A DNA stretch of 64,000 nt from contig CM055901.1 of NCBI GenBank assembly GCA_029582155.1, forward strand, positions 52,891,206 through 52,955,205. The letters run 5' to 3'. Shown piece by piece: positions 41,701 through 64,000 of the stretch. The stretch comes from Panopea generosa (lineage: Eukaryota; Mollusca; Bivalvia; Adapedonta; Hiatellidae). The position numbers and the translations under genes were made by a program. Positions within the stretch are counted from its first letter, which is position 1. The number at the start of each line of letters is the position of its first letter. The notes under the pieces are model-generated. The model was not told where the DNA came from. It saw nothing but the letters and a program-made list of their open reading frames with translations, and did not search any database.

Positions 41701-41709
41701 CTAATTTAA

Positions 41710-43690
41710 TAAACAAAAATCTAAACATCTTTAATCTCAAAAATTAAAAATCTCAAATTAAAAATATCAAAAAGGAAATATCAAATTAAACATCTGAAAT
41801 AAAATCTCAAATCTATTAACTAAAAAACTCAAAAATGAAATCTCAAAAATAAAATATCAAATTAAAATCTCAAAAATGAAATCTCAAAAATGAAAATAAA
41901 AATAAAAAAAAATCGATGTAAAAAATTTTCAAAAATGAAATCTCAAATTCCAAATCGCAAATTAAACATCTTTAATCTCAAAAATTAAAAATCTCAAATT
42001 AAAAATATCAAAAAGGAAATATCAAATTAAACATCTGAAATAAAATCTCAAATCTATTAACTAAAAAACTCAAAAATGAAATCTCAAAAATAAAATATCA
42101 AATTAAAATCTCAAAAATGAAATCTCAAAAATGAAATCTCAAAAATATAATCTCAAAAATGAAATCTCAAAAATATAATCTCAAAAACAATATCTCAAAA
42201 ATGAAATCTCAAAAATGAAATCTCAAAAATATAATCTCAAAAATAAAATCTCAATTTAAAATCTCAATGAAATCTCAAAAAGAAAAATCTCAAAAATAAA
42301 ATATCAAATTAAAATCTCAAAAATATAATCTAAAAAATGAAATCTCAAAAATACAATCTCAAAAACAATATCTCAAAAATGAAATCTCAAAAATGAAATC
42401 TCAAAAACAAAATCTCAAAAATATAATCTCAAAAACAATATCTCAAAAATATTATCTCAAAAAACAATATTTCAATAACAATATCTCAAAAATGAAATCT
42501 CAAAAATGAAATCTCAAAAATATAATCTCAAAAACAATATCTCAATAACAATATCTCAAAAATGAAATCTCAAAAATGAAATCTCAAAAATATAATCTCA
42601 AAAATAAAATCTCAATTTAAAATCTCAATGAAATCTCAAAAAGAAAAATCTCAAAAATAAAATATCAAATTAAAATCTCAAAAATATAATCTAAAAAATG
42701 AAATCTCAAAAATGAAATCTCAAAAACAAAATCTCAAAAATATAATCTCAAAAACAATATCTCAAAAACAATATCTCAATAACAATATCTCAAAAATGAA
42801 ATCTCAAAAACAAAATCTCAAAAATATAATCTCAAAAACAATATCTCAATAACAATATCTCAAAAATGAAATCTCAAAAATGAAATCTCAAAAACAAAAT
42901 CTCAAAAATATAATCTCAAAAACAATATCTCAAAAATGAAATCTCAAAAATAAAATCTCAAATTATAAAAAATCTCGAAAATGAAATCTCAAAAACAAAA
43001 TCTCAAAAATATAATCTCAAAAACAATATCTCAATAACAATATCTCAAAAATGAAATCTCAAAAACAAAATCTCAAAAATATAATCTCAAAAACAATATC
43101 TCAATAACAATATCTCAAAAATGAAATCTCAAAAATGAAATCTCAAAAACAAAATCTCAAAAATATAATCTCAAAAACAATATCTCAAAAATGAAATCTC
43201 AAAAGTAAAATCTCAAATTATAAAAAATCTCGAAAATGAAATCTCAAAAATGAAATCTCAAAAACAAAATCTCAAAAATATAATCTCAAAAACAATATCT
43301 CAATAACAATATCTCAAAAATGAAATCTCAAAAACAAAATCTCAAAAATATAATCTCAAAAACAATATCTCAATAACAATATCTCAAAAATGAAATCTCA
43401 AAAATGAAATCTCAAAAACAAAATCTCAAAAATATAATCTCAAAAACAATATCTCAAAAATGAAATCTCAAAAATAAAATCTCAAATTATAAAAAATCTC
43501 GAAAATGAAATCTCAAAATTAAAAATCTCAAAAATAAAATATCAAATTATAAAAAATCTCGAAAATGAAATCTCAAAATTAAAAATCTCAAAAATAAAAT
43601 ATCAAATTAAAATCTCAAATTAAAAATCTCAAAAATGAAATCTCAAAAATATGAAATCTCAAAAAATATGAAATCTCAAAAATGAAAATG
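41710..43690. repeat. 14-15-bp A-rich minisatellite with nested higher-order repeats
   Basis: The unit is ATCTCAAAAATGAA with variants ending AAAATATA, AAAACAA or AATTAAA. A block of about 240 bp at 41720 recurs at 41960. The rare phrase CTCAAATTATAAAAAATCTCG occurs near 42958, 43211, 43481 and 43541, showing further 253-270-bp blocks. It begins within ~20 bp of the end of the C/T-rich array. Confidence 0.96.
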
Positions 43691-43909
43691 AAAAAAAAAA
43701 ATCCAAATAAAGTTGTGAAATAAGCATCAATAAAAAGGGAAAAAAATGAAATCTGAAAATTAAGAATATGCATTAAAATGGGGCAAAAATTGAAAAAAAT
43801 AATGATGAGAAATGAGGAGACAACCCAACATAATGCTACAGTAACACATTAAGATTCCAATGGTGATTGTAAGACAGCTCCGGCGTTCCATAGAAAACAT
43901 TTAAGCAAG
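43691..43909. other. Short spacer between arrays
   Basis: A-rich sequence with remnants of the previous array. No gene. Confidence 0.5.
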
Positions 43910-44165
43910 CGGTACTCTCCAAAATAAGGTGTGAACACATACGGGTGATCATTACTCTCCAAATAAAATGGGTGAAAACATCCGAGTGAACATTACTCAC
44001 AAAAAAGATGCGTAAACATTCGAGTGAACATTACTCACAAAAAAGATGCGTAAACATTCGAATGAACATAACTCACAAAAAGGTGTGAACACATCGCAGT
44101 GAACATTACTCACAAAATAAAGTTGTGAACATAACTCGTCAAATAAAGGTGTGAATGTTACTCAC
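43910..44165. repeat. Short array, about 35-40-bp units
   Basis: Six or seven diverged copies of GTGAACATTACTCACAAAA followed by AGATGCGTAAACATTCGA or a GGTGTGAACACATC variant. Confidence 0.88.
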
Positions 44166-45456: not shown

Positions 45457-46316
45457 GAGAGGGGGCGGTGGACATGGAGTTACAATTTGGCTCGTAGTGC
45501 ATGATGATTTGATGACGCTACAAATGATTTATAATTGGTCTTTGTGAATAACGTTTACTTATTTGACGTTTTTTTATGACATTTGTTAAATCGCAAGTTT
45601 TACATTTGTAACAACAATTTTTCAAATATGTGGAATGGCTTTATATATGTTATAGTCTGCTCTCCCGAATTGGTTTTGAATGACGTCACAGTTTAGTTAA
45701 GCGTTCAATTGCTATGATTTGTGGGACAGGTTTAGAATTCCATGTTTTTTTCATTGGTGGTTAACAGACCTGATTCGGGGCGTATCAGGATCTGGCATAG
45801 ACTACATTTGTGACAATTTTTACGTATGTATTTTCACAATTGTGTTTTGCTTCGTTTTTAAAAATGTTTCTGCCACATCAATTTTGTTAGCTTGAGATAT
45901 TAGTCCAAACGCTGCCACAATGGAATATCATACCGCTATTGTATTTATTAAATGTTATACCAACACCCAGGCACACTGAACTGACAACGGGCCGACTGGA
46001 CATGTTTTTAAATGCTGAGCGCCAAGTAAGGAATATTCAAATGCCATTATTGAAGTCTTTGAAATGACCCGATCGGTGAACAGACCCCCGACCATTCGCA
46101 TCAGAGGCGAACGTTTAACCTCTAGACATTGACAAAGAATACGGAATTGTAAAAGAAGAGAATTTCTATAAAAGCATCCATTATTATATTATATATGCTG
46201 AAAATAACCTTAGGACATAAAAATCCCCGGTTCTTATTAACAGTTCCCATAAGCTCTGAGCTTACTTTCCAGTCATGTTAAACTAAGTTAATATAAACCG
46301 TACGACCAGATACATT

Positions 46317-46317
<1 letters not shown>
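45456..46317. other. Unique segment between G32 and C41 runs
   Basis: 862 bp without an ORF above 60 codons. Base composition is closer to balanced than the flanks. It is bounded on the left by 32 G and on the right by 41 C, which are inverted complements of each other. No gene or element recognised. Confidence 0.55.

Positions 46318-46358
<41 letters not shown>
46318..46358. repeat. 41-base C run
   Basis: Forty-one consecutive C, the complement of the G run 0.86 kb to the left. Its true length is uncertain. Confidence 0.9.
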
Positions 46359-46360
<2 letters not shown>

Positions 46361-46520
46361 ATAGTAAGACTATCTTTTGTAAAAGCAAAGTGGTCTTAAT
46401 AGTGGCTAGGTGTTATTGTATTGTTAAATCCCAATCTTTAAAAGTTGTTCTCAATAAATAGCTTACTAATGTCATGCTATAATGGACATTCTCACATAAC
46501 ATACTGGTTAAAGTGTAAGC

Positions 46521-46705
46521 AGGGAGGTAGTCTAATGGATAGAGTGTTGGCCACTCACGCCAGATGTTATGGGTTCGATCCCCCTGTCTACCCGGTGCCT
46601 CTCATAAAACAACACTCAGTACTGGTTCTACCCAGGAAGCGGACTCGAGAGCGGTTCATATAAGCTCTGATCGCAATCGAGCTAAAATGAATAAGTATAA
46701 ACCAA
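46521..46705 (+). mobile_element. SINE family C, tRNA-derived
   Basis: The head carries box A TAGTCTAATGGATAGAG and an exact box B GGTTCGATCCCCC, in tRNA-like spacing, with GGGAGG...CTACCC partial arm pairing. The body reads ACTCAGTACTGGTTCTACCC, AGGAAGCGGACTCGAGAG and ends GAGCTAAAATGAATAAGTAT. It shares no sequence with families A or B. No clear target-site duplication seen. Overlapping ORFs at 46445-46746 are by-products. Confidence 0.75.
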
Positions 46706-48683
46706 AAGCGTGGTCTGTTATAAAATGTGATAGGATCCATTGCTGAGCTAAATAAAAACATCAGCGTAAAACTAAGCTGAACTAAATCAAAACATCAGCT
46801 TAAAACTAGTTGATATACCGTCTTTCTCTATATTAAGTTAGCTCTCGCATTAACGACTCTCGAGCGTAATTGCTTTCAAACGGAAATAGTGTTATTAATG
46901 TTATTTTTGCTGAAAATCAAAATAACTGGATATAATTGTCATGACTATGGGGCATGATCACTAATCAAACTGTAGAATGCTTCAACTAATGCGGGCAATG
47001 AAGCAAAAACTTACTCTTGGAAAAGTGTTTATCACAAAATTATTTTACCTAAAAATTACCATTGATATGAATTAACAACACTTCGTGTGGCATTTAAGGT
47101 TATTTTATAGAATTAAGATATTCACTTGTGAGATTAAAATGGATATTATGTCTCGAAGAGAAAAAAATGTGTAATTACTCAAACTTGTTCTATAAGTGAC
47201 AACCAAAAATGATTGCACTGCTGAAATAACTATCACCAGATCGTGCTCTTACGCCTGTAACTTTAAGTTTTTAAACATTATAAAAACACTAACAGACAAA
47301 ATTAGCTCATATCAAAACAGGATTTAAATGTTAATGTTAATGTGTAGTCGAAAATAGTTCTAAGCATAAAAATATTATCTGAAGAAAGGTTTATGGTATG
47401 TTGCATGCGTAATAGATTTGATCACTAAATCAAGTTATTTCTCTCTGTGCATGGGCAAGCGTAACATCAAATATGAAAATACTTTTCGTTTTTATACGAT
47501 TTTTAAGGACGCACGCACATAACAAACACGAGACTTTATGTATGCAAACACACACATATTCACAAAACGTCATTCGGAAGTAAGCCCACAAGCACACGTA
47601 AACAGAATAATAAAGCCCATATATTCACAAAAATAAAACAGTCTTTTAGTTTTTAAGCAACATTTCCGAACCAAATGCTTGTCACAAACAATTAGCTAAA
47701 TATATTTTATTTATTGTATTTTATGAGGTCACAAAACACCCTATTCGCCACTGAAGATTGAGGTTTGCACGGTAACCAGAAACATATTTCAGCTTACAGT
47801 ACACACATAACAGAAACTAAGTGTAACTTAGAAATGTTCATTGGATCATAAACTAAATACAGCTTATAAATGTATACATGAGCATTAAACAGACACTTAG
47901 TTGCGAATCCTCATCCACAACGCAACGCCGTTACAGATTCATTTGATCTCACCCCTGGAGCCGCCGAGATTACATGGTCGCACTGTGATTCATTGTATAT
48001 TCTGCAGCATGTAAAAACGAACAGCGTTTGCAGTGTTTTCCCTGTTGTCTTTGTTGCGTATTTGTTTGGCCTGAAAACAATGGCCTCCTCTGAAAGCAGG
48101 ACATTATGTATATTTTGACTCGTAGCTTTCATGTAAATTCGGGATACTTAAACCAGAAGCGAATGCACCATTCCATTATTCGACAGAAAGGAACGTCTTT
48201 AAAGAGGTTGAAGTGACGGCAGAAGATCCGGTATAAGGAAATATTTTGACCCCACAGAATAATGACCACCGGTCGTTATTTTATAGAAAAAAACAAACTC
48301 CCCGGTCAACATTTTATATAGTATAATGACTCCCCAGTCATAATATTATGACCCCACCCACATGAATTAAAATAACCACAATTGCAATATATATTTATTT
48401 GCTGATAATACAGCAACGTCCTGCCAGGTAACGTTACATTAAATTTTATAACAAAGTACAAAACAAAACTGTTGGCGATTGAGCTGTACATGCATCGTAT
48501 TTACCTACTCTGTATTTACGGTTTCTTTTGTATCGTAGTGTCACTTGCCTTAAAATACATGTTTTGCTATCTTCCATAAATATGCTTAACATAACTATAT
48601 AAATGCACAATTAAATACATAAAGTCACAGTGTGGTTATCGATTGCTGTGTACGCTATTAAAGTAAAATTGACACGAAAAAGT
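46706..48683. other. DNA without recognisable gene
   Basis: No supported gene. Near 48260-48350 the phrase AATGACC...GGTCATAATATTATGACCCC recurs in short form, probably part of a dispersed repeat. The minus-strand ORF at 47911-48132 has no recognised domain. Confidence 0.45.
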
Positions 48684-48760
48684 TGCGGTGGTGTAGCGGT
48701 GAGCATAGTGGAATGGTAATCAAAAGCTCAGTGTCCGATCCCCGGATGCGCCAGACTTTA
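48684..48760 (+). mobile_element. tRNA-like sequence (SINE head or tRNA pseudogene)
   Basis: Box A TGGTGTAGCGGTGAGC fits the consensus. A degenerate box B, GTCCGATCCCCGG, lies at the right distance. The acceptor arms do not pair and the anticodon arm is weak, so a working tRNA gene is unlikely. Confidence 0.45.
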
Positions 48761-48796
48761 TATTCGTGCTTTACAGTTTTAACTTTAAATAATAAA

Positions 48797-48990
48797 TTAT
48801 GGTTTGTTCGAGCCCCGTGGGGACTTCGACCATATAGCTCTTAAACGTGATAAAGTTGGCAATTTCTTACGGAGGAAAGGGGTCTGATTCTGGTAAGAAA
48901 CCCAGAAACGATGGTTAGGCAAACTGCTCGCTTGTATATGACTGAAAGATTGTTGACAAACGGGCGTTAAACTCCTCACAAACAAATAAA
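48797..48990 (+). mobile_element. SINE family B, 5'-truncated
   Basis: Starts in box B (TTGTTCGAGCCCCGTGGGG). It continues with CGACCATATAGCTC, AAGTTGGCAATTTCTTACGG and AACGATGGTTAGGCAAACTG, then the shared tail TATGACTGAAAGATTGTTGA-CAAACGGGCGTTAAACTCC, and finishes in (AAACAAA)n. The full-length relative is at 55541-55714. Confidence 0.82.
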
Positions 48991-49738
48991 CAAACAATAA
49001 ATGATGCCCCCACTGTAGTGAAGAAGACTTCCATATTTGTTTGCTCCTGTCCGTCCGTCCTAGCATCTGATCGGATTTTTTTGCCTTACTTATCTTGACC
49101 AGTTTCGTCACAGAATCCAAACACTTTACAGAAATCTTGGTCATCGTGGGAAGTTATGTATTCGTGTTTTTGACACCTTGCAATCTGTACGGGGAAAGTT
49201 ATACCACTTTAATAGAAATGCTATACAGGGTTTTAGAGATGAAGCCCGGACAAGCTAAAGGTAGACGGACAGACCGATGGACGGACCGACGGACAGACGA
49301 CACTGCCAATACTAATATGCGAGTTTTACGCTCTGTAATTCTTCTCATTAATATCTATCTGTTTCAATGTTTCATTGAAATCCCTGGAGTTATTCTCCGG
49401 GCAAAGGTGCGACGGACGGACCAATAGAGAGACGGACGGACAGACAAAGCGGAAACTTAATTATTAAGTAAATTTGTGTTTTATTACAAAACGTATAACA
49501 ATCATTTCTTTTATTGACAGCTTTTTGCCTGTTACAATGCAACGGCTTTTTGTACGAAACACCTTATAAAAGTTTTATCAACGAAACATAGAGAAAAAAA
49601 TATATGTTTAAACATTGCCTTGAAACAAGATTAAAAATGTTCTCGTCTACGTCAAGAGACTTTCCTTCCAAACCATCAACCCTGTATCCCTTGTTTGTGA
49701 ATTCTATGACATAGCCACTCGTTGTCTCTTTCCCTCAA
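48991..49738. other. GGAC/GTCC-rich dispersed repeat region and 3' flank of the Ginger1-like gene
   Basis: It contains TCCGTCCGTCC, ACGGACAGACCGATGGACGG and GACGGACGGACAGAC phrases that recur in other dispersed modules of this window. On the minus strand an AATAAA (plus-strand TTTATT near 49510) lies about 230 bp downstream of the OTU stop codon and could be its polyadenylation signal. Confidence 0.45.
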
Positions 49739-50400
49739 CTATTCTTCGTTCCTATGGCTATTGACCGAAGCTCCGTCCAAGATGTCGTCGCTAAAGAACC
49801 TGAAGTAATTTGCTGGGATGATTTTCCGAATTCGAGTATACGGCGGTCTTGAAAACTCCTCGCCCTCCTCATCTAGAACTGTGACGAAATGGTCGCCTGT
49901 GTTCCGGATGAAAACTGCACTGGAGTTGACACCCTCATCAGACAATGGTTTATATTCTAACCACTTCCAGCTATCTCCGCATCTCGAATACACATAAACG
50001 ATGGTTCGGGTTATTGTTGCAAATGCGAAAATCTCAACTTCAGTTCCCAATGTATCATCAGTGGCCACCATTGACTGGTCGAGATAACGATCTGCTGGAT
50101 CACGCATAACACTTCATTAAATTCTCATTTTCTTTCATGAACTCAACAAGGACATGTCGGAGTAATCTATGCATTGTTTGCACACCAAACACGTTGTCGC
50201 TGAATGTTCTAAACAGACAATTACCATCTCTACGCATGGAAACAGTACGTGTTGGTTTTGTGCCGCGCGATATATACCAGTATTGTATGAATTCTTCACC
50301 TTCGCATGAAATACGTTGGATATTTGTTCTTGCCAATCCTTATCCACAGATTGGAACGATTCATTGGCACTTTCATTAATAACAGTAACATCACCGGCAT
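49739..50400 (-). pseudogene. OTU cysteine-protease domain, frame-broken
   Basis: Two overlapping open frames together cover an OTU fold. Around 50250-50200 is the nucleophile motif RRDGNCLFRTFSDNVFG (Asp, Gly-Asn-Cys). After a frame change near 50100-50107 come GTEVEIFAFATI and, near the end, GDHFVTVL, which supplies the catalytic His position. The C-terminus runs past the OTU fold to a TAG/TAA near 49739. A second break lies near 50260-50300, between a Lys-rich linker with KDWQEQISNVF and the OTU start. In Ginger1 transposases this domain follows the integrase on the same polypeptide, as here. Its role in transposition is not established. It could alternatively be an unrelated OTU gene, but the order, strand and spacing argue against that. 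Confidence 0.75.
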
Positions 50401-50467
50401 CAGAAACCTTTTTCTTTTTAAGAGGGAATTGACGCTCGTCCTTACTTTCTGTATTAACATTTTACTC

Positions 50468-50940
50468 TTAACATCCTACATCATGCTTCGTTTCCGTCAT
50501 AAACACTTTCTGAGAATCTCCTTCTGCTGCACTTGTATCATCTTCATCCTCGCCTGTCCTGTAAATTGTAAGTCTGCTTCCATTTAAGTATATCTTAAGC
50601 CCTTCTAAGAAGTATGCCCTTTCCCACTTACTTTTGTTATGCGATATGGTCCTTTCCACTTTGTTTTAAGCTTCCCTCCTTTTCGAGTTGTCTTTCGAGT
50701 GTTATGCACTAGGACCTGGTCGCCGATACAAAACGTGTTCTCCGATATGGAAGAGTCATGATACTGTTTCTGTTTTGACTTTGCCGTTTTTATGTTTGAT
50801 GATACCTTTTCTCTTCCACACGCTAACTCTATGGAAGATTCACATCTTTGCCTGAGTAATGTTTCATGGTTCTGACTTTCACCTCCTTCCGTTTGTGGAA
50901 TGTTTAATTCAATGGGAAGCAGAGCTTGTCTACCATACAC
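50468..50940 (-). pseudogene. Integrase C-terminal (GPY/F-like) region and linker
   Basis: The open frame 50605-50940 starts at YGRQALLPIELN, a universal Gypsy-type integrase motif. It runs through an SH3-like stretch, FCIGDQVLVHN, and ends with KWKGPYRITKVSGKG, which is the GPY/F signature. The frame then stops. The adjoining frame (50468-50659) continues AYFLEGLKIYLNGS and an acidic linker, so one base is gained or lost near 50610-50620, next to a GGG. Upstream, the frame differs from that of the catalytic core by a break near 50955-50960. DNA-binding and multimer contacts are the known role of this region in integrases. Confidence 0.8.
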
Positions 50941-51328
50941 ATGATAAAAGGGTGTTTGCTTTGTGGACGCATGTTTCTGTATGCAAATAATACATAGGGT
51001 AACTTCACATCCCAGTCATTATGGGCTGAGTTAATGTAGTTGATAAGCATGCTACATTTAGTTCTATTAAAACGTTCTGTGTGACCCCAAGTCTGTGGAT
51101 GATACGAGGCTGCTATTCGGTGATCTATCCCAAATTGTTGGCATATTCGGTTGTTCAGATCGGTGCAAAATTCCCTTCCTTGGTCTGTTATCAGAACAGT
51201 CGGGCATCCATGAGTAGCCATACATTTTGTGAAGACACTCATAACCTGTTCAGCTGATTTGTCCTGAATTGCCTCTGCTTCTACCCATTTCGTGAAATAG
51301 TCTGTAATAACCACGACGAACTTGTTAC
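50904..51328 (-). pseudogene. Integrase/transposase catalytic core (DDE)
   Basis: The exon starts at an AG|GT boundary (51328). It encodes an RNase H-like core with the three acidic residues in place: Asp in VITDYFTKW, Asp in VLITDQGREF, Glu in GHTERFNRT. The surrounding motifs YHPQT and VLFAYRN also fit Gypsy-type integrases. A Trp replaces the usual Asn in PQTNG. The frame runs off near 50955, where a shift is needed to reach YGRQALLP. The first two bases complete a split Gly codon with the preceding exon at 53248. The frame matches over 140 codons, so the core is recent or was under selection. Confidence 0.85.
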
Positions 51329-51479
51329 CTGAAAAGCAGATTAGAAAGTTTTCAACTTTACACCAACCTTTACCAACAACATTTGTTTCATTATTATGCG
51401 CAGGATTCGTTCTTGCTTATGTGTGCTAGATTTCATATCCACAGTCAACATCACATTGATCTTCAAACGGAAATACAAC

Positions 51480-51514
51480 CAACCATACAACCATACATGC
51501 AACCATACATACAA

Positions 51515-51553
<39 letters not shown>

Positions 51554-51720
51554 TCTAGCCATACACACATACATGCATGCATTCATTCAGGCATACATAC
51601 ATGCGTTAATGCATGCATATAGTCAGCCAGCCAGCCTGTCAGCCAGTCGGCCCGGCCCGGCCCCACCCGCCCGCCCGCCAGCCAGTCAGCCAGCCAGCAA
51701 GCCAGTCATGCGTACATGCA
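51480..51720. repeat. CAGC/CATA-rich simple repeat
   Basis: Alternating (CAGC)n, CATACATGCAT and CCGCCCGC phrases. Overlapping Gln/Pro/Ala/Ser ORFs on the plus strand (51383-51725) are by-products. Confidence 0.88.
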
Positions 51721-51924
51721 TATAACCATGCATGTAACCATGCATGCGTATACATTGAATATACGTATATCAAATGTATTGTATATAAAATCTACATTAT
51801 TATTGTATACATATTTTTGGTGGCGGCGGCGACGTAATGCTAAGGCACAAGTAACTAAAAGTGTTGGGGTATTGGAGGTTAATGTGGGGGTTGGAGGGGA
51901 GGGGATTGGAGTATTTTGGATTGT

Positions 51925-52375
51925 TGCACTCTACACATCGTCTCATCACCACTTACATATATTCTAAGTTTCAAGTCAATACCTTGAATAGTTTATGAGT
52001 TGTGCTCCGGACACAAAATATGACAGACAGATTTAACATTTGAAATCTATTTGTGACCTTGACCTCCGACCTACCCACCAGTTCATGTGCACGCACATCG
52101 TCCCATCGCCACCTACATATATCCTTAGTTTAAAGTCAATACCTTGAATCGTTATTAAGTTATTCTCCGGACACGAAATATGACGGACATATTTGACATT
52201 TGAGCTCAATTTGTGACCTTGACCTTTAACCTACGGACCCGGTTCACGTGCTCTGCGTATCGTCTCATCGCCACCTACCGTTATGCCAAGTTTGAAGTCA
52301 TTACCTTGAATGGTTGTTAAGTTATGCTCCGGACACGGAATATGACGGACGGACAGACGCACGCGCCGTCACATA
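51925..52375 (+). repeat. 161-bp tandem unit, nearly three copies
   Basis: The marker CGTCTCATC/CGTCCCATCG occurs at 51939, 52099 and 52261, spaced 160-162 bp. Each copy holds AAGTCAATACCTTGAAT, GTTATGCTCCGGACACGAA, ATATGACGGAC and GTGACCTTGACC. The last copy ends in GGACGGACAGACGCACGCGC. This looks like a dispersed module widespread in bivalve genomes, judging by its phrases. No coding capacity. Confidence 0.85.
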
Positions 52376-53247
52376 ATACGTCCCGTTTTTCCAAAAATGC
52401 GCGTATAAAAAGGAAATTACATTGAGATAACATGTTAATATTAACAAATCTGTACGCTTTAATATTCATAATGGGTGCACTTGGGACAACTTTGATTGTT
52501 TCTTGATGTATTAAACATTCTCAGAATTAATCTGCTTATTATAAGAAAATGAGTGGTTTTCATAATGGAGAAGGGCAACACAAAATGTAAAAGTAATTAC
52601 ATGTTATGAAGCCGATTCAACAAGGAAGTCATACTTCCAAAGTTTAGACATGTTTATTTTTTGGAGTGTATTAAGGATTTGGATCGGATCACATAGCATT
52701 CAGTCGTAATTCAAATGGATCATTATCAAAATTATGCACACCCACCCTGAAGTCGATGTTTTTGTCACCCAGCGACTTTTGATTGTTTCGAAACACAAAA
52801 TTATGCTTAAACGGGCACCGGTTTAGATCTTCTGTGCGAGCAGAAGTGTTTCTTGCCAGAATGTAATCAGTATATATATCCAAACAAGGATTTCGATTGG
52901 CATTCTATGCTTGAAAACATGTGTACCGCTTACAAAGAATACATTGAATGACTGCACTACAGTTTGAGACAGAGATAAAACCGTGCTACTGTTGCCACTA
53001 CTTTTTCAAATATCCCACGTACCAGTTACGTCCGTTAAATTTCGTTGAATTGAACAGAAGTCCCATGTATTTGGCTTCTTCGCCTGTCCGTTTGTATTAC
53101 CTTGATTTCTTCTTTATTTAAACCTATAGCCCAGTTTCGACGAAACTTTACATAGTTAATCAGTACGGTGCTTAGTTGTGCATACGAATTGTCGACAAGA
53201 TATTTTTGGCGTTATGCCCTTAATTTTTAACATATTTATTTACATAC

Positions 53248-53428
53248 CAGTTGGCATGGTTTCTAAGGGGCCAATGAGATCCATGTCCACTTGTTTAAAG
53301 GCATCCGAAGGAACTGGTACCGACTGTAGTGGTTTCTTTGCTTTTTTTCAAGTCAGCTTTCCGATCAAATGTCTTAACCTCCTCATAGCAGCCTTTCCAG
53401 TAAAACCTTTCGGCAATTTTTCCCCCAT
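53248..53428 (-). pseudogene. Integrase middle exon, degenerate zinc-finger to LIGPL segment
   Basis: An acceptor TTACTTCTTTCAG ends at 53429. The exon encodes GGKIAERFYWKGCYEEVKTF in one frame. After a break in a seven-A run it continues with LQSVPVPSDAFKQVDMDLIG and LETMPT in another, ending at the GTATGT donor (53247). The KIAERFYWKG and DLIGPL blocks are typical of this integrase family. The CxxC that should follow 'VKTF' is missing, about ten residues short, so the zinc finger lacks its two cysteines. The five-G run near the start is a second likely frame break. Confidence 0.75.
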
Positions 53429-54249
53429 CTGAAAGAAGTAAAACTAAAATTTCTTGATCAAACACTACGCATTCTTATGAATTCAAATCTCATTCTCATA
53501 TGTGCATACAATTATGGGTTCTTGTGTGCGCGCAAGTTTTATTTAAGTGGAATAGAAGAACTTTAACCTAAACAAAAACCTAATAATTTGCGACAGATGG
53601 ACCGACAGTCTGTTCTGCGATGTGATCATAGTAATCTTATACCCAGTAGCCATGTACATTATCTTATTTCTCATACACACATGCAGAGTATAAAATGGAT
53701 GGAAATGAAATATACTGACGCAAAAATAATCCATGCACTTTAACTGACAGAGCTGCACCACGCAATCTTTGCACGTGTATGTCAAGCGAAGTGTTTTACA
53801 CGCTTTATTTGTTAAAGTTCCATAAGACTTTTAATTACAGGTAAAAACAGGTAAAACAGTTGTCCAAATAGAAAATATGCATAATTAAATGATAAGAAAA
53901 ACACTGATTTTAATATTACACATGAACTTATACAGTTAGTACCATAAAGGGAGGTAATCAAAATAATGGATTCAGTAATACTTTCTACAATGTTAATCAA
54001 ATATTCAAACCTATGACAAATATATCAGAGAACAATTATTGAAAATAAGATTTTACAAGAAAAGAATGTATTTTATGTTCATAAAAAAAATGTTGCAGCC
54101 ACATTCAAAACAAAGGCATTATGAGCCTTTAAACATACTGGACGATTTACTAAACGATGCGGTCATTTGAATTGTTGATTTGACTTAAATGAGAGTTGGG
54201 CATACTCAGCTTTGACTGACAAGACGCCCACGAGGGCCTGAATCGCTCT

Positions 54250-55130
54250 AACGGGTTTCAAGCTTGACACATAAATAGGGGTAGCATCATTTTTAAAATG
54301 AAAACAAACTCGATGAGGATCAGGCCAAAATTGTTAGTTACCTAGTTTTTAACCCATTCTGACCCGGTTTCAAACATGGCTTAGATTTTATTTAGACAAA
54401 CGTTCTCTCAAAGTTTCATGACGATCAAGCAAAAAAGTGTGGCCTCTAGAGTGCTCACAAGATTTTGACTATTATTTAACCTAGATTTTGACCCCAGCTG
54501 GCCCACTTTAAAATGAGGCCAATAACTTATGGTAATACACATTATATCCAAATTTCATAAAAATAGGTTAAGTATTACAGATTCAATTGCATAAATAAAG
54601 CAAAATAAAAAAATGCATTGTTTTGCTATGTCAAGGGCCACAACTCTAGTGGGTAATGGTCTGATCAAGACCATTATCAATCTCATCCAAGATCTAAATG
54701 GTCATACACATTCTAAGCAAGTTTGGTTAGTTCGGTAAAGAAATAAACAATACATCAAGAGCTTTTTGCAAAATAAAGCATTTTTGCTTATTAAGAGGCC
54801 ATAACATTTGTGTTCCTAGTCCGATCTGGTCCGTCGAACTTGTCCGAGGTATTGTTGCTGTACACATTATGTCCAAGGTTGGGCAAGATCGGGGAAGAAT
54901 TAAAGACTTTATCGCGTAAACAAGGCAAATAAAGCTTTTTTTGCTTTTTAAGGGGCCATTACTCTGAATATCCTGGTCCGATCTGATCCGTTATCAAACT
55001 CATCCGAGATATTGTAGTTATAAACATCTGACCAAGTTTGGTTGAGATTGCATCAAAACTGTGGACTTAATCGCGTAAACAATAAAAGTTTACCGACGGA
55101 CGGACGGACAATGAACGATCCACCACGACA
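54250..55130 (+). repeat. Modular dispersed repeat, about 170-200-bp units
   Basis: Recurring phrases in order are GGGGCCATAACTCT or AGAGGCCATAAC, GGTCCGATCTGATCCG, AACTCATCCGAGATATTG, GACCAAGTTTGGTTGAGAT and GACTTAATCGCGTAAACAA. They occur in at least three diverged cycles (54500-54690, 54790-54900, 54950-55080). The region ends GACGGACGGACGGACAATGA and runs directly into the family B SINE body at ~55139. No coding capacity. Confidence 0.75.
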
Positions 55131-55138
55131 ATAGCCCT

Positions 55139-55312
55139 ACTGGTTCGATGGACCTCGACAATATAGCTCTTTATCTGAGTAAGTTGGCAGTTTTATTACG
55201 GAGGATAGGGGTCTGGTAGTGGTAAATAACCAAGGAACGATGGTTAACCTGTATATGACTTAAAGATTGTTGAAAAACGGGCGTTAAATTCCTAACAAAA
55301 CCAAACCAGAAA
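55139..55312 (+). mobile_element. SINE family B, 5'-truncated
   Basis: Starts ACTGGTTCGATGGACCTCGAC and follows the family body (CAATATAGCTC, GTAAGTTGGCAGTTTTATTACGG, GAACGATGGTTAACCTG). The end is TATGACTTAAAGATTGTTGA, CGGGCGTTAAATTCCTAACA. It is joined to the preceding modular repeat without a gap. Confidence 0.8.
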
Positions 55313-55540
55313 ATAGCCACGTGATAACTGTAAAATACAATGCTCCACCTCTTAGACAGGAGGTAGGCGGTATCCACATTGAATGAACTTAACTGCAAAT
55401 ATATGAGAATGTTGAAAAAACCCCTGACTTATTCGATTGTTATGCGATTATTTTTTGATTAGTGAAAAAAATTAAACAAGTTATTTGGCTAGTACTAGTA
55501 GGACAAACGGTGAATCATTAAACAATAGCTGCTTAAAAAT

Positions 55541-55714
55541 GAGTTTAGCCTCCGTTCTTCAACAATCTATCAGTCATATACAGGCGGGCAATTTACTTAA
55601 CCATCGTTCCTGGATTTATTTCCAGTACCAGACCATATGGTCGGTCGAGGTACACCGTGGGGCTCGAACCATCAACCCCCAGAGGTGACCTTATCCACTC
55701 AAGGAGGCGGGCAA
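55541..55714 (-). mobile_element. SINE family B, near full length
   Basis: On the minus strand it has a tRNA-like head GCCCGCCTCCTTGAGTGGAT with box A and, 35 bases on, box B GATGGTTCGAGCCCCACGG. Then come CTCGACCGACCATATGGTCT, GGAACGATGGTTAAGTAAAT, TATGACTGATAGATTGTTGA and AACGGAGGCTAAACTC. This copy shows what the 5' part of the family looks like. Confidence 0.82.
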
Positions 55715-56282
55715 CTTAAAGGAGTAATACCCATTTGCATATTTTCTTTTGCGTAAGTTGTTTTCAGGCCAAAGGAATCAGGACATGTACACATATAAAA
55801 CGCACACGAACTGTCCGGTGGAAAATGTTAATATTCTCCTTATATTTTCTTCAAACCAACTGAAAAATACGATCGTGTTTTTGGCTGGATGGTTAACCCG
55901 ATTGGGGTGAGTTGGGGGCAAGTAGAAATTAAGAACCTTAAAACAACAAGGTCACGTTTCATCATCATTCTTACGAGATTCGCATTTATAAATTCATAAT
56001 AATTATTAATCAATTAAAACTGTTGAATAAATACAAATTATCATAAATAAAAAAAGACCTCCATAAATGTCAACTTTGATTGTTAAAGATGCACGCCTCC
56101 AGATTTATGTATAATTTTTCGAAATTTACAAAAATACTTTTTTTATCAAATAAAACAAATCTAACCATAATTTTTTCTTTTCTTAAAAATAGTTTTTGCT
56201 TGTTTAACCTATATAAAACTGATATTGAAATAAAGAACTGACATAAAAATGAACATTGATTCGTATCTCTTTTATATCAGAG

Positions 56283-56396
56283 ACGAATGATAATGAGATG
56301 CAATATGTATACCAACCATCACGGAGATTGTGACCGGTGGGGACCCATGGATTAATATTCAGACGCGCTTACGACAGAGCTAATCGGGCCCGGCAG
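56283..56396 (-). mobile_element. SINE family A, head half only
   Basis: Minus-strand GGCTGCCGGGCCCGATTAGC start with box A, a damaged box B (GGACCCATGG on the plus strand has lost the TTCGAAC core), and body to the CATTATCATTCGTCTC segment, where it stops. Confidence 0.8.
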
Positions 56397-58822
56397 CCAT
56401 TACAAAAGCAAGCATGATTGAATTTGTAAAATATGAAACTAACCCTCCGCTTGATAACGAAAAATTAATATTGCGGTTAGTGTCGATGTAGACCCAGATC
56501 AGCCTGCACAATCAAGGTATGCACTGTTTGCCTCGCAGTCAGTAAATTATCAAATTCAACATTTCTAATCAGGAATGGAATTAAAGCAAAAAATGGTCCA
56601 TGATATATATTCAACGGGCTCATAGAGAATAATAAATAAAACTTTATTTAGCGAAAAAAAAGAGAAATCGTATTTGACAGCTTTTTTATTCATCATCATG
56701 TTAAATTGGTGCATCCATTGATGTCTGATAATACCATTTTAAAGTAAATTTAGATGAAGCGTTGTTGAGTAGTATTTTTAATATTTGCATAACTTGTTTT
56801 TTTGTTTTATCATAGTGTTTATTTTACCTATAACTAGCCCATATGACATCATAACCTAGTCTACTAGTTACCTGGACAAATATGATTTTTTAACCTTTGA
56901 TGGATAGTGTTATACGGAATATATTTGCCTACAGGCATATTGCACAAAATATATGGTACTGTCCAGTTACTGGCATCCTGCTGAGCTTTCATAATCCACT
57001 AACACTACAGTCACACCATGTGGTAATGAAAAAAAACCATGCATATTGTACCCCAATTTGCATAATTCACCTTAGATTTTATGACCCCAGGGTTCAAGAT
57101 AGGATGTATGTTATATTGCATAGTATTATGGACAATTACTTTCAGTTATTTAGGGGTTCAATACCAATGGAAAGAAATTATGTTACGTCGGTCCACTTTT
57201 TGTAACGTTCATCCTCTATATTAGAGTGACATTAAACAAAATCTCTAAATTTTTGTTCATTTTTGGGGGGATAAATTATTCATATCTTAGTTGCACTCTG
57301 CAAACATAAAATACTTCATACATTGAAAAAAAGTGAAATTGATTCTATAAATTAAAAGAAAGAAAGAATGTATATGCAAGTAGGGGAGTGGGAGGCGAAC
57401 GTCACGAGGACGGACGTTCCATTTCCGTGTATATCTTTCCAAAATAACCATTTTTTTTACATTTTATATAGTACCTCGGTATAACAGCAGGTGAATGTAT
57501 ATCATTCTATTTATCTTCTTGGAAGAATATATACCAGGGATGCAGACGTTACAGTTTTTTTGTCACAAATTAAAATTTTCTTATTTTATGTATTATTTCA
57601 CAAATAAACTATAATTAAAGCAAATATATCTCCTCGGAGTCATGCATTACAATGTGATACACGAACATGTTGTAAATATGATAAAATCAAAATTGTATGT
57701 ATATTATTTTGTGTGATATTTGTCCGTAGTAAATGGTATAAATTTATAATGAATATATCCAATTTCTCTTTAATACAATGAATGTATAAACAAAATAAAA
57801 TGTATTTTAGTTACGTTTCAACCCCAAATAATAACAATCCAATACTATCACACACTAATTAAAAACAAAAACCGTAAGTTATGATTGTGACACATAATCA
57901 TGGTGTGAAACACTATAAAGTTTATGCATTAACCTATTAGCCTTGTACGAAACCTCAGTTTGGTGATACGAAACGTCTGTAATTCATCCAAAGCTCTCTT
58001 AAATAAAAGAAAATCATAGTTTTTTTTGCAAAAAAACTACATTTAGGTTATATTGATATGTTATAGTAATAATGTTTTTTTTTAAAAATCATTTACCTAC
58101 GTTTTAAACAAAAAAGGCCCATTAACTGTGCAACATGCATGTCTTCTGTTTGGTCCGAAATGTGGTAGATAATACATCTATAAAAAGACAAGAATTATTA
58201 ATAAAGTCCGTCATGTCGCATGAACTATTTAACAAACAAAATATAACCATTCCCTATTTGTAAATGATAGTAGGGATATTGATAAAAAAATTAATAGTTA
58301 ACTTCTCTAGTTTACAAATTACCCCACCAATCACCAGAAATCAAGCATTTATTAAAGTATACAAACACGCACAAAACGATAAAAAGTAATTTTATTTTAT
58401 CATGAGAAACTTATTTTTTTTTATTTTCTTTCATATCTTGTATTGTTTTCTTTCTTTTCATGGCTGTTTGTTGTAATTAACTACTGTCAGAAACACCACT
58501 GCGGTTTGTTATGGTGTGACGCGATTCTCCTGAGCTCAAGTCACGCACAGATCTCGTCACGCACGAAAGTGAGATTTCACCTTTTCGAATTTGAGAATAT
58601 AATATATATAATAATACTTGTTTATCATTTTCAATATCTATTATCTTAGTATCAATTGCTATCTGTTTTAAAAGTTTTGAAATTTTGATGTTGATTTGGA
58701 GGCATGTCTCTTTAACATATTCCCACATTTAACATCAACGGTTGACCAGCGAATAATTATCGAGCACATTATGACATATATTGTACACTAAAAAAGGAAG
58801 TAAAACAAACTAATTTACTCAC

Positions 58823-59086
58823 GTCTTTAGAACTCCGAGGTGACCGCCATGCTGGTGAGAATGAATACTTTCTATTATCTCTCTTGTGTTTCCTTTCCCT
58901 TCTTTATGACTTTAAGTCGCGACCCTTTCTTTCCGGAGTTGTAAAACAACACGTCTTCTTCAATAACAAATGCTGCACATTTGCGTCGAAAATTCCCTTT
59001 TCTTGACTTACTTTTTATAATGTTTTCGGGATAAATCTTATGTTTTAAAAAAACACTTCAATTTCGACGTACACTGAGTGGTCCAT
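58823..59086 (-). pseudogene. Integrase N-terminal exon with His-rich zinc-finger start
   Basis: From an ATG at 59086 the minus strand reads MDHSVYVEIEVF. After a break in a seven-T run it continues YPENIIKSKSRKGNFRRKCA, FVIEEDVLFYNSGKKGSRLK and KGKETQEIIESIHSHQHGGH, then LGVLK, and ends at AC|GTGAGT (58822). 'YPxx...FRRKC' corresponds to the conserved N-terminal block of Ginger1/Gypsy integrases. 'H..H..GGHLG..K' is the start of the HHCC zinc finger. The ATG fits as the true start because nothing recognisable precedes it. The break is a single base in a homopolymer. Confidence 0.8.
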
Positions 59087-60009
59087 TTTGGGAGTTTAAT
59101 CACATGTCTACGAACTACCCCTTATGTAGACAAGACGAAAGCTTTGATCTTGCCGAAAAGTTGGTTTGGCATCACAGCCTTTGATCCTGGAAGAACGTGA
59201 CACTAGTTGCACGTGGTTGCATTCTTCTACAAATCAAGAGAAGCGGTATCTTCTGCGCCGAACTTAACACCTAATCAAAGAGGTCGAAGACACATTTTTT
59301 TCCATTTGAATTAAATGATTTTTGCCGATTAGCTTTGTTCAAATCGGTGTATTTACATCATAAATATTTTTCTGACAGGGTGGTTGAACAAGCAAAGAAA
59401 TCTGTCAAATGTATATTAAAATAAAAAAGATGAATATTTTTGCTGAAACAGTTCATAAAAGCTCCATCAGACCCATTACAAACATGGCTAAACCGGTCCC
59501 GTCTTTAAACAAATCGAGTGATGTAAGTCTGGGTGTGCGCTAGCCATATTTAATTTTCCTTCACTTTTTTAAGGCATAGTACCACCATTGCAAAAAGGAA
59601 GTGCTTCGCATAATGGCGGTTATAAATAATCCTCATTTCTTCTTCTTTAAAAATGCATTTTCCTTACTTTAATGCTCATTTTTTTATTTGAATGGCATTA
59701 TTGATGTATTTTGAACATTTTGATAGCATTGTCATGTTTGAATTGTGAATTTAAAAAAAAAATTGATGCTTGGAAATTGGGGTATGAATACATGATTTCG
59801 GAAGTCTTCTTTCACTTTGTCACCAGTGTACACACTGAGCAGAAAAAAATCTCTTATATGACACATGAACCCTACTTTTCTCATCATATTTTGAAAGTGC
59901 AGAGGTTGACAAATAGTAAAATGTAGGTTTCACTTCTTTCATTTGGGTTTCTTTATGAATGACAAGCCTTCAAACTTTATTCTATGGGACACAAAATACT
60001 TCCTTACAC
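59087..60009. other. 5' flank of the Ginger1-like gene, no gene recognised
   Basis: No ORF with recognised domain (59711-59926 unsupported). I looked here for a terminal inverted repeat matching the region near 49440-49700 and did not see one. Confidence 0.45.
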
Positions 60010-60475
60010 CCTACTCGAGATTGTTGCGAGAAAACAATAACAACTCGGTCTTTGAAGGATTGAATCTTCGCCCGTTCTGATATTTTTGAAAGGTCTTCAA
60101 TGTATTAGCGGTAGTAATAGGGTCATCAAAAAAATGAATAAGCCGTTGTCATCTGCGAATAAACGCATATTTGAGTTGATATCAGCAACAATATCATTAA
60201 TGTATAATACTGTCACAGATATAGAGAATGACACCACCGTGGCTATCATTACGATCTTTTCTCTCAGGTGATGCAAATGATTCAAATACTAATGCGGAAT
60301 TTGGTATCGAACTGTTCAACCAAGTTTCGGAGAAAGGAAGGATATCAAATTCAGTTAATTCGGTTGGTAAATTATCGAGGTTTTGGAATATACTTTGGAC
60401 GTGGTAATGAACAAAAAACAAATGACCATATTCATTTACAGATTCATATATAGATTCATATTGGGTTAATAACAA
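60010..60475 (-). mobile_element. Collapsed LINE fragment: endonuclease joined to reverse transcriptase
   Basis: On the minus strand, 60475-60215 encodes an AP-endonuclease segment: YHVQSIFQNLDNL, EFDILPFSETWLN and DRNDSHGGVILYI, matching the 'NvqSi...L...fDIl.l.ETWL....dr.gGGva.Y' pattern. At about 60215 it changes frame and becomes reverse transcriptase: YINDIVADINSNMRLFADDN, with the catalytic DD. After one more break in a seven-T run it reads TLKTFQKYQNGRRFNPSKTE, then LLLFSRN. Everything between the endonuclease middle and the RT catalytic motif, roughly 1 kb in an intact element, is missing. The CR1/L2/Jockey-like group fits; the exact clade is not determined. Confidence 0.8.
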
Positions 60476-60479
60476 ACTT

Positions 60480-62410
60480 GAGTTGGATGCATAAATAAAG
60501 TGTGTTCTGATTAAATATATTATCAGAAGATGACATATTTCGAATTACAAATATTTAATATGATTCCTATTTATTATTTCAGTGAAAACCTCTAGACAAT
60601 TTAAAAACTTTTATAGATAAGTTATTTCAAGTAGCGCCAGTAAAAAGTCTTTTACTTTCAGAGACAACATGCAAAGGAATGAAAACTTATGTCTGATTTT
60701 GTTAAGAAAAAAATTGCCTGATTTGATAGAAGAGAGGAAGTCGAGGGCACTGTACAATCATTATTGACACTTTCAGAAGATACTTTTATATCTGTCATGT
60801 TCATATGTCTTGTAAGGGATACGTCGATTTGAGTCACAATGTGTTAACCATCCAGCGTACCTCGTTGACATTGGTCTGCACCAAGCTCATTATCTCGGTA
60901 TTCATGGCAGCAGTCATTGAGGCTGTTAGCTGTTGAAATTAATGCTGTCTGAATGCTCATTGTTTATAGATATACCTGGCTTAGCAGCATTGTCCATATG
61001 AGAAGGGTAACCGTATTGATGTAGTAAAAGTTGTAAAATATACTGGTATTTCACCAAATATGGTGAAGGTCCCTTTTGCAAGCATGTTGAAACAAGGTCT
61101 CGCGGTTTTTACTCATCATTTCATTTTGAAGCAGTAGTGGTAATAAAAGCTTTGGGACGTGAAAAACGTAGCGGTGCTTAAGCATGAATGCGCACGGAAA
61201 CAAACTAAACATGTGAAATCCGAAATTCTCACGGAAGCAAAGTATGCACACAAACTTCCTACACTAATGACGATAAGCTTACGCAACCTGCAAGTACTAG
61301 TTTGTGATACTGATGAAGTAAATTAAAATATTTATCAAATATGTTTGGAATACAAGAAAACAATCCTGGCTTTTTCGGTTCTGATGGGAAATTGAAAGAG
61401 ACTCGTTCCCGCCAAAACAGTCATCCCTCTATACGGAATTTCCTGTCAGAACATCAAACTCATGTAATATTCTTATATTCTTGGACGCTTTATGTGCTTC
61501 CAAGTGATCCATCATTATAAAGGATATTACTAACGTAAAGCGGTTCTAGTGCTGCTACATATGTGAAGATTATAGTTTAAACCGTTTTTATCTGTTATGC
61601 TACTTGATAAATTATTTTCATACTTATATACGCATGTTCTGTAAAGTAATAGTTTTCAAAGTATAAACACATTGTATTATTCTTCTAGAATGAGATATAA
61701 TTTTGTAGCAATAGTGGTGGAATTAAAATAGGTTAATATTAACGTGAACAGAGTAAGGCTAGTTTAATTTAAAATTGCACTTGGTGATATTGCTACTGGC
61801 CACGTTCTTTGAAGTTAGTTTCTTACATTTTATACTATCTGATGTACTTCTTAAATTCTATATATGTTATGTGTATACTGTTGTGGTGACTGCTGGACAC
61901 ATATTTTCTTCATACCCGAGGCTAATTAATACTTATTTAATACAAAATTTAGTTACCAGTCAAGTATACTCTGTTTAACGCCTTGTTTTCACACTGTATC
62001 CATCTACCTCGTTTGCTAATTGGCTTCCAGCAGGTTTTATCGGAATCAATTAAGTTTGGTGTTATGCTGTATTGTTGTGTTGCGGTGAAGTACTTTTATA
62101 TGCATAATGCATATCGTTTTCCTCCATATAGCTGCTTTATTCAAACAGAAAACGACACTTACTTACTGACTAGCGTTATAATGTCTATAGGATGTTACAT
62201 TATATGACACAGACAGATTTATTGGTGGAATTAGCTTTACTGGCTCGCGTGCTCATGCCAAGCACAAAGTAGCACGTGTGTCAGATCAATGGCATATTCA
62301 GGATAAGAATGAAATGTATTTTTGTTATGTTAAGCAAGGTTAAAAGTCACCGAGTACGCATGTCTTTGTAATCTGTAATAATGTCTCTGAAAACTTGTAC
62401 ATTATTATAA
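60480..62410. other. AT-rich DNA without recognisable gene
   Basis: ORFs at 61051-61251 (minus), 61775-61978 and 61983-62207 (plus) have no recognised domain. A pyrimidine-rich CTTTATTTTAG ends at 62421, just before the 36-bp array. Confidence 0.45.
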
Positions 62411-62434
62411 CTTTATTTTAGACATAAAATAATA

Positions 62435-63318
62435 TCGTCGACTAGTTATCCTGACATAGTTGACGTGATTTCGTCGACTATTATTCCGGACATAGTTGAC
62501 GTGATGTCGTCGACTAGTTATCCTGACATAGTTGACGTGATGTCGTCGACTATTATTTCTGACATAGTTGACGTGATGTCGTCGTCGACTATTAATCCTG
62601 ACATAGTTGATGTGATGTCGTCGACTATTAATCCTGACATAGTTGACGTGATGTCGTCGTCTATTAATCCTGACATAGTTGACGTGATGTCGTCGACTAT
62701 TATTCCTGACATAGTTGACGTGATGTCGTCGTCGACTATTAATCCTGACATAGTTGACGTGATGTCGTCGACTATTAATCCTGACATAGTTGACGTGATG
62801 TCGTCGACTATTATTCCTGACATAGTTGACGTGATGTCGTCAACTATTAATCCTGACATAGTTGACGTGATGTCGTCGACTATTAATCCTGACATAGTTG
62901 ACGTGATGTCGTCGACTAGTTATCCTGACATAGTTGACGTGATGTCGTCGACTATTATTCCTGACATAGTTGACGTGATGTCGTCGTCGACTATTAATCC
63001 TGACATAGTTGACGTGATGTCGTCGACTATTAATCCTGACATAGTTGACGTGATGTCGTCGTCGACTATTAATCCTGACATAGTTGACGTGATGTCGTCG
63101 ACTATTATTCCTGACATAGTTGACGTGATGTCGTCGTCGACTATTAATCCTGACATAGTTGACGTGATGTCGTCGACTATTAATCCTGACATAGTTGACG
63201 TGATGTCGTCGACTATTATTCCTGACATAGTTGGCGTGATGTTGTCGTCGGCTATTAATCCTGACATAGTTGACGTGATGTCGTCGAAAATTAATTCTGA
63301 CATAGTTGACGTGATATC
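62435..63318 (+). repeat. 36/39-bp minisatellite, 24 units, open in one frame
   Basis: Reading the positions of GACATAGTTGACGTGAT gives 24 units from 62453 to 63299. Seventeen intervals are 36 bp and six are 39 bp; the extra three bases are always one more GTC/TCG in the GTCGTCGAC segment. One plus-strand frame is open from 62411 to TGA at 63331: repeats of MSSTINPDIVDV with I/N/Y and T/S changes. The complementary strand is also open (MSGLIVDDITST repeats). A splice-acceptor-like TTTATTTTAG ends at 62421 in an open frame, so an exon is possible. Coding is unproven, since any 36-bp satellite keeps a frame. Each unit carries TGACGTGA, a CRE/ATF-like word, and most carry GTCGAC. Confidence 0.97.
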
Positions 63319-63331
63319 CAGAATGTATTGA

Positions 63332-64000
63332 TTAGAGCAATACGGATATAAATATTGAGAAAAAATAAGTTGAAGGAATTCCACATAGAGTTTCATATTT
63401 ACTTAATGTAAGTATTTGGTTCAAGGGATCCTTCTATTATATATTATTTATTTGCTGTGCCTTCAGGAGATGTATTTTCATAGTATTGCATTATATCATT
63501 TGTCAACCCTTTTGGGCTCACCTAGTCTGATAAACTTTAGCAAGTAACATTTTTGAATAACGTCTGATTCAAGATAAAAATAAATTATAATAATTTAGAA
63601 CCGATGAGCACAAAGAGTTCTTCCCCTTGAAAACAGTAACCAGCCATTTTGTTCTCCGGTGTATATGGTTGACATTGTAGTACTATATTATTGCTGTACT
63701 CGAATAAACACTGTTGCAATACTCGTCTTTATACTTAAACAATTCAGTTGTTGAAGGAAGACAATATGTAGCCTTTCTATAAGTAGAACCTATCTGAAGA
63801 TTGAATTTAGACTCAAATATACTCCTTAAAAGCAACCAAGAAATCTAATTTTAAAAATCTCGCGGGCAGAAAACAGCACTGTGGAATGTTTGACTATATA
63901 TATTACCAAGTCTGTTAAATCGGCACCATTTTAAATTCAAAATAGCAACAAATGAAGATATTAAGACATATAAAGCAAAAACACACATTTATTACTTACT
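63332..64000. other. AT-rich DNA to window end
   Basis: No ORF or element recognised. Confidence 0.5.

Follow-up and report, generated by a model that had tools for sequence, protein, structure and literature searches.

The window is a stretch of 64,000 nucleotides from the bivalve Panopea generosa (contig CM055901.1, positions 52,891,206 to 52,955,205). Its minus strand carries, from 60008 down to 48232, an element that is almost certainly a dead member of a Ginger1 DNA transposon family with many copies. Ginger1 elements are defined by an H2C2 finger, DDE, GPY/F and YPYY motifs, and an OTU or Ulp1 domain. Their termini are inverted repeats of about 40-270 bp with the sequence TGTNR, and they occupy CCGG or CCGT target sites (PMC2836005). 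An initial annotation of the window placed an intron-split Ginger1-type transposase at 49739-59086, which is the coding part of a wider mobile unit (48232-60008). The parts of the locus, from 5' to 3' along the element, are the following.

59978-60008, minus strand: remnant of the 5' terminal inverted repeat, 31 nt, starting TGTAAGG
59572-59978, minus strand: young high-copy repeat that breaks the 5' end, 93-97% identical to at least 39 other places (40 of 2,547 candidates scored)
59087-59571, minus strand: 5' non-coding part of the element; homology to three copies stops at 59570-59571
58823-59086, minus strand: exon 1, broken in frame; it has a candidate start, a YP...FY stretch and the first half of the H2C2 zinc finger
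53429-58822, minus strand: intron 1, GT-AG, made up of about 2.9 kb of family sequence and a nested insert
56146-58597, minus strand: nested repeat in intron 1, 2,452 bp, its main dispersed matches at 85-91% identity
53248-53428, minus strand: exon 2, with the remaining zinc-finger region and DLIGPL; weak H2C2 match (0.062); frame broken
51329-53247, minus strand: intron 2, GT-AG, with a 160-bp unit repeated in tandem at 51934-52350
49739-51328, minus strand: exon 3, with the DDE core in D35E spacing, the GPY/F motif and the OTU domain; several frame breaks
48356-49738, minus strand: non-coding 3' stretch of the element; alignment to family copies continues to 48228
48232-48355, minus strand: 3' terminal inverted repeat; 95 of 128 columns identical to the 5' end of family copy c10
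48228-48231, no strand: CCGG adjoining the 3' end, the expected target-site duplication on the 3' side; its 5' counterpart is AGGG

The coding blocks follow one another on the minus strand as a zinc-finger start, DLIGPL, a DDE integrase core, KGPYRI and an OTU stretch with DGNC. The initial annotation had listed these five blocks in this order, and translations and Pfam scans confirm it. The integrase core matches Pfam rve at 1.1e-9, above the cut-off, and the D-D-35-E catalytic residues are retained in the translation as read by eye. The GPY/F motif reads KWKGPYRI near 50.65 kb and KWTGPYKI in the relative L065 (by eye). Upstream of the zinc finger, exon 1 encodes YP and, further on, FY, also read by eye, the published YPYY alignment being a figure. 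Of the H2C2 finger, the first half scores 6.5e-4 on 58822-58911 and the second half 0.062, both below the cut-off, and the Cys-Cys half is unreadable in the window copy. Scanned as single-frame pieces, the OTU region gives 0.0036 on one, below the cut-off, and no match on the other; with both pieces joined by X it reaches 7.4e-8, above the cut-off. Taken by themselves, these pieces would amount to modest evidence.

The family is dispersed through the window's own assembly, which was the genome searched (1.474 Gb, 39 contigs). A search with the core protein gives 151 matches (best 150 of 1,452 candidates scored). The 20 best other places are 73-86% identical, and matches at 31-41% identity include Gypsy-like ones in long open frames. 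Exon 3 DNA matches 52 pieces at 40 or more places, the window among them (40 of 83 candidates scored), at 81-94% identity per piece, the window's own 100% aside; the main matches are at 85-91%. At 21 other places at least 1,538 of the 1,589 exon 3 bases are covered at 85-90% identity. The 3' end is likewise matched at no fewer than 40 places, again counting the window (40 of 171 candidates scored). These copy counts are lower bounds. Chance is excluded as the origin of the domain order because that order recurs in the 21 other exon 3 places, and because rve (2.1e-13) and OTU (8e-12) share a single open frame of 546 codons in the distant relative L065 (714-2351). L065, with a core about 45% identical, represents a second, distant Ginger1-like lineage.

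The limits of the mobile unit emerge from comparison of copies. A search for inverted repeats within the window alone did not find the ends. Ten copies were fetched at 20 kb each and aligned to window 40000-64000 in the same orientation (E up to 1e-8, at least 120 bases). Their alignments span 48228 to 59571 and lie nowhere else in that interval. The edge at 48228 is met exactly by three of the ten, and the edge at 59570-59571 by three. Other copies extend beyond the window's 5' homology edge; they terminate in TGTAAGGAAGTATTTTG..., which corresponds to the 3' end in inverted orientation. The inverted repeats also pair between copies, with 66 of 72 positions identical for the c10 5' end against the c02 3' end and 98 of 128 for c10 against c04.

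Eight copies with both ends listed were picked by eye for analysis of the termini, leaving out at least three (C1:67.5, C2:29.8 and C12:45.6 Mb). The distance between their ends is about 6.7-14.4 kb. All eight start with TGT, seven with TGTNR, and six have ACA at the 3' end. CCGG flanks both sides in five, and in the other three it flanks one side with TCGG or TTGG on the other; the search queries contained CCGG, which gives a mild bias to these counts. Terminal inverted repeats with CCGG duplications, sought as a sign of Ginger1, are therefore found in the relatives. The ends of the window copy are inverted repeats as well, unlike long terminal repeats (LTRs), and both are damaged. Its outer 3' end is mutated, with minus-strand TATA in place of the TACA seen in six of the eight relatives. 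Its 5' remnant matches the 5' termini of c10 and c06 over 34 nt (88 and 91%) and agrees with the window's own 3' end at 25 of 30 positions. The young repeat sits where relatives carry about 500 bp of family sequence that is missing from the window copy. This younger repeat damaged the 5' end of the window copy.

Both introns recur in the dispersed copies. Intron 2 aligns in all ten fetched copies, over more than 500 bases in nine and over 183 in c04. Eight of them align to intron 1 over more than 900 bases; the alignments of c02 and c08 cover 11 and 147 bases, and that of c08 is probably a repeat match from elsewhere in the element. Among readable copies the splice dinucleotides are kept in 7/7 for donor 1, 7/9 for acceptor 1, 7/7 for donor 2 and 10/10 for acceptor 2. 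For the intron alignments and splice counts, and for the divergence values below, copies were mapped with the order of pieces not enforced. The canonical splice ends noted in the initial annotation are thus borne out, as is the split Gly codon restored at 53248/51328. Since dispersed copies carry the same introns, the kilobase introns are part of the mobile unit. Their length had been regarded as unusual for a mobile element. Ginger1 introns, zero to four in number, have been known since 2010, and the Aplysia OTU family has two; three intron positions are conserved in Figure 3b of the same paper (PMC2836005). Introns are therefore no mark of a host gene here.

Intron 1 has also received other repeats. 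Three other places match the nested repeat over all 2,452 bases, and it accounts for 2.45 of the 5.4 kb of the intron. At the place of the insert, seven fetched copies span the site, six of them with 13-283 bp and c03 with about 2.9 kb. Part of the window's nested repeat has a diverged relative (68.5%) within this c03 sequence, in the opposite orientation, so the spot seems to have been entered by related repeats more than once.

The integrase tree contains 27 cores: the window, six of 19 family loci and 20 other places. A branch with support 100/99 joins the window, the family copies, six OTU-linked relatives and three unlabelled relatives against 11 others. The 11 are labelled Gypsy-like, with reverse transcriptase in the same frame read by eye in one of them, L075. 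The OTU label does not form a clean clade (4 changes) because the three unlabelled rows fall among labelled ones. At least 13 of the listed integrase matches have a listed OTU match on the same strand, some 1 kb further downstream (by eye). In L075, a Gypsy-like element, the integrase lies upstream of the reverse transcriptase in one frame, again by eye; this domain order may be Gmr1-like.

Of the 26 open frames of at least 80 codons listed for 46000-64000, 21 were scanned, among them those inside the element, and none matched a reverse transcriptase family; the other five lie in the tandem array at 62.4-63.4 kb, and shorter frames were represented by exon pieces only. Within these scans, a set of 10 frames (one of them a repeat) gave one sub-threshold match of 0.041 and a set of 8 gave two, of 0.093 and 0.058; none is a transposon family. 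The assignment to Ginger1 made in the initial annotation is supported by the domains, the inverted repeats, the TGT termini, the CCGG target-site duplications of relatives, the tree that sets the family apart from Gypsy-like integrases, and the reverse transcriptase scan. The family appears to be new within the known Ginger1 type, filed on its features, with Ginger1 members compared by published description. No published account of it was recognised in literature searches, which did not extend to Repbase, where Ginger1 had 23 entries in 2022 (PMC10045372).

Several points weigh against this assignment. It was made by published features and not by alignment with Ginger1 reference proteins, and the gene model of the window copy is a prediction from DNA sequence. 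H2C2 remains under its Pfam cut-off, and OTU reaches its own only when two pieces in different frames are scanned together. The 5' flank of the window copy is AGGG, not CCGG, and its own target-site duplication is not demonstrated. A search with the joined flanks for an empty site gave no match across the join, and the right flank is itself repeated. In two of the ten fetched copies, c02 and c08, intron 1 does not truly align, and two of nine copies have lost acceptor 1.

The window copy is an old, decayed genomic fossil and no functioning host gene. Frame shifts or stops occur in exons 1, 2 and 3. Relative to most covering copies, exon 3 has frame-breaking differences near 50.98, 50.62, 50.28 and 50.11 kb. 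As read from these frames, the window copy cannot encode a full transposase. Pooled over ten copies, differences at the three codon positions are 441/4,420, 370/4,410 and 429/4,407 (10.0, 8.4 and 9.7%). Intron differences are 8.9-12.7%, apart from a single 13.6% for an intron 1 alignment of 147 bases. An excess at third positions is absent, and exon differences are near the intron values. This pattern resembles that expected of neutral decay after a burst of copies; the lower second-position divergence hints at some old constraint. Frame reading, insertions and deletions relative to copies, and codon-position divergence found no open frame under purifying selection at the window copy.

A Ginger1-derived gene that the host has domesticated and that still works, on the model of Gin-1, Gin-2 or Imagin, would be consistent with the largely retained splice ends, the long introns and the slightly lower second-position divergence, and such genes do exist (PMC2836005; PMC12863088). 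It is nonetheless very improbable here. Each exon is broken in frame, differences at third positions show no excess over the others and exon values lie near intron ones, and the window is one of 40 or more dispersed places. The D-D-35-E residues are still present, whereas Imagin is described as having lost its DDE triad. The frame breaks and the flat codon-position divergence led to rejection of this explanation. On the same evidence, together with the introns common to dispersed copies and the nested repeat, the long-resident, host-like gene of the initial annotation is not supported.

Spread of the copies by segmental duplication of one host locus, in place of transposition, is about equally improbable. 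One pair of copies, c06 and c12 (G000:C6 73.47-73.91 Mb), shares 2.6 kb of flank at 93% identity and probably consists of segmental duplicates. Homology of the ten fetched copies, on the other hand, ends at the element edges, and the eight copies with both ends lie at CCGG (or CCGG with TCGG or TTGG) in apparently unrelated flanks.

A fragment of a Gypsy-type LTR retrotransposon is the least probable origin and was rejected: the best solved-structure match is Ty3 and the 31-41% integrase matches in the same genome include L075 with its reverse transcriptase, but the termini are inverted repeats with CCGG, copies have introns in common, integrase and OTU stay together in the 21 other exon 3 places, the tree splits at 100/99, and none of the element's own frames of at least 80 codons matches a reverse transcriptase family.

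For the Ginger1 family, a mechanism can be proposed. Ancestral active copies would have spliced the transcript of a three-exon transposase gene. The transposase would have bound the inverted repeats and, making 4-bp staggered cuts, placed the DNA in CCGG. Mobility probably used a DNA and not an RNA intermediate, because the introns are retained; judging from the family, the route may have been cut-and-paste or a related DNA reaction of the DDE enzyme. The OTU domain perhaps stripped ubiquitin from proteins at the transposition site, a role that Bao et al. suggested without a test (PMC2836005).

Among published systems, Ginger1-1_AC of Aplysia californica is similar in its mollusc host, OTU domain and two introns, and its inverted repeats are 140 bp (PMC2836005). 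Compared by description and not by sequence identity, it differs in length, with 4,336 bp against about 6.7-14.4 kb here. Its first intron is GT-TG, while both introns here are GT-AG (PMC2836005). Ginger1-1, -2, -3 and -11_HM of Hydra are also OTU-type Ginger1 elements; they differ in having one intron each, lengths of 2.6-4.6 kb and a cnidarian host (PMC2836005). The Ginger1 families in Table 1 of that paper range from 2.6 to 7.1 kb, and the present family is on the long side. Gin-1, Gin-2 and Imagin share with it a Ginger1-derived integrase-like gene with introns (PMC2836005, PMC12863088). Imagin is described as single-copy, under purifying selection, without inverted repeats and without its DDE triad (PMC12863088); the present family has many copies, inverted repeats, DDE residues and neutral-looking decay.

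The locus adds a large OTU-type Ginger1 family with introns, in a genome of 1.47 Gb, in which CCGG duplications and shared introns are observed directly. It is also a caution for annotators. Because this transposon brings its own introns, an integrase-like frame is not marked as a host gene by having introns and splice sites alone.

In 18 of 40 listed copies the 3' end is matched a second time, in part, right beside the first match, which looks like a tandem doubling of the 3' terminus. The outermost end of doubled copies has CCGG in C10:33.5, C5:86.1 and C16:50.4 and TCGG in C3:55.6. It is conceivable, though doubtful, that the introns with their tandem arrays were retained to regulate transposase expression and that the lineage with the doubled 3' terminus used its outermost end to move.

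Beyond the 5' end, an open frame at 60197-60544 on the minus strand has no Pfam match, and the adjoining flank is repeated in the genome. By eye, the frame resembles the endonuclease start of a non-LTR retrotransposon. Four stretches in viral contigs fit a pattern, and none of them codes for a relative of the element. A long tandem array occupies 62411-63331, with open frames of short repeated peptides on both strands. At 40001-44000 the GC skew is -0.73 over 4 kb, far from that of the remaining window.

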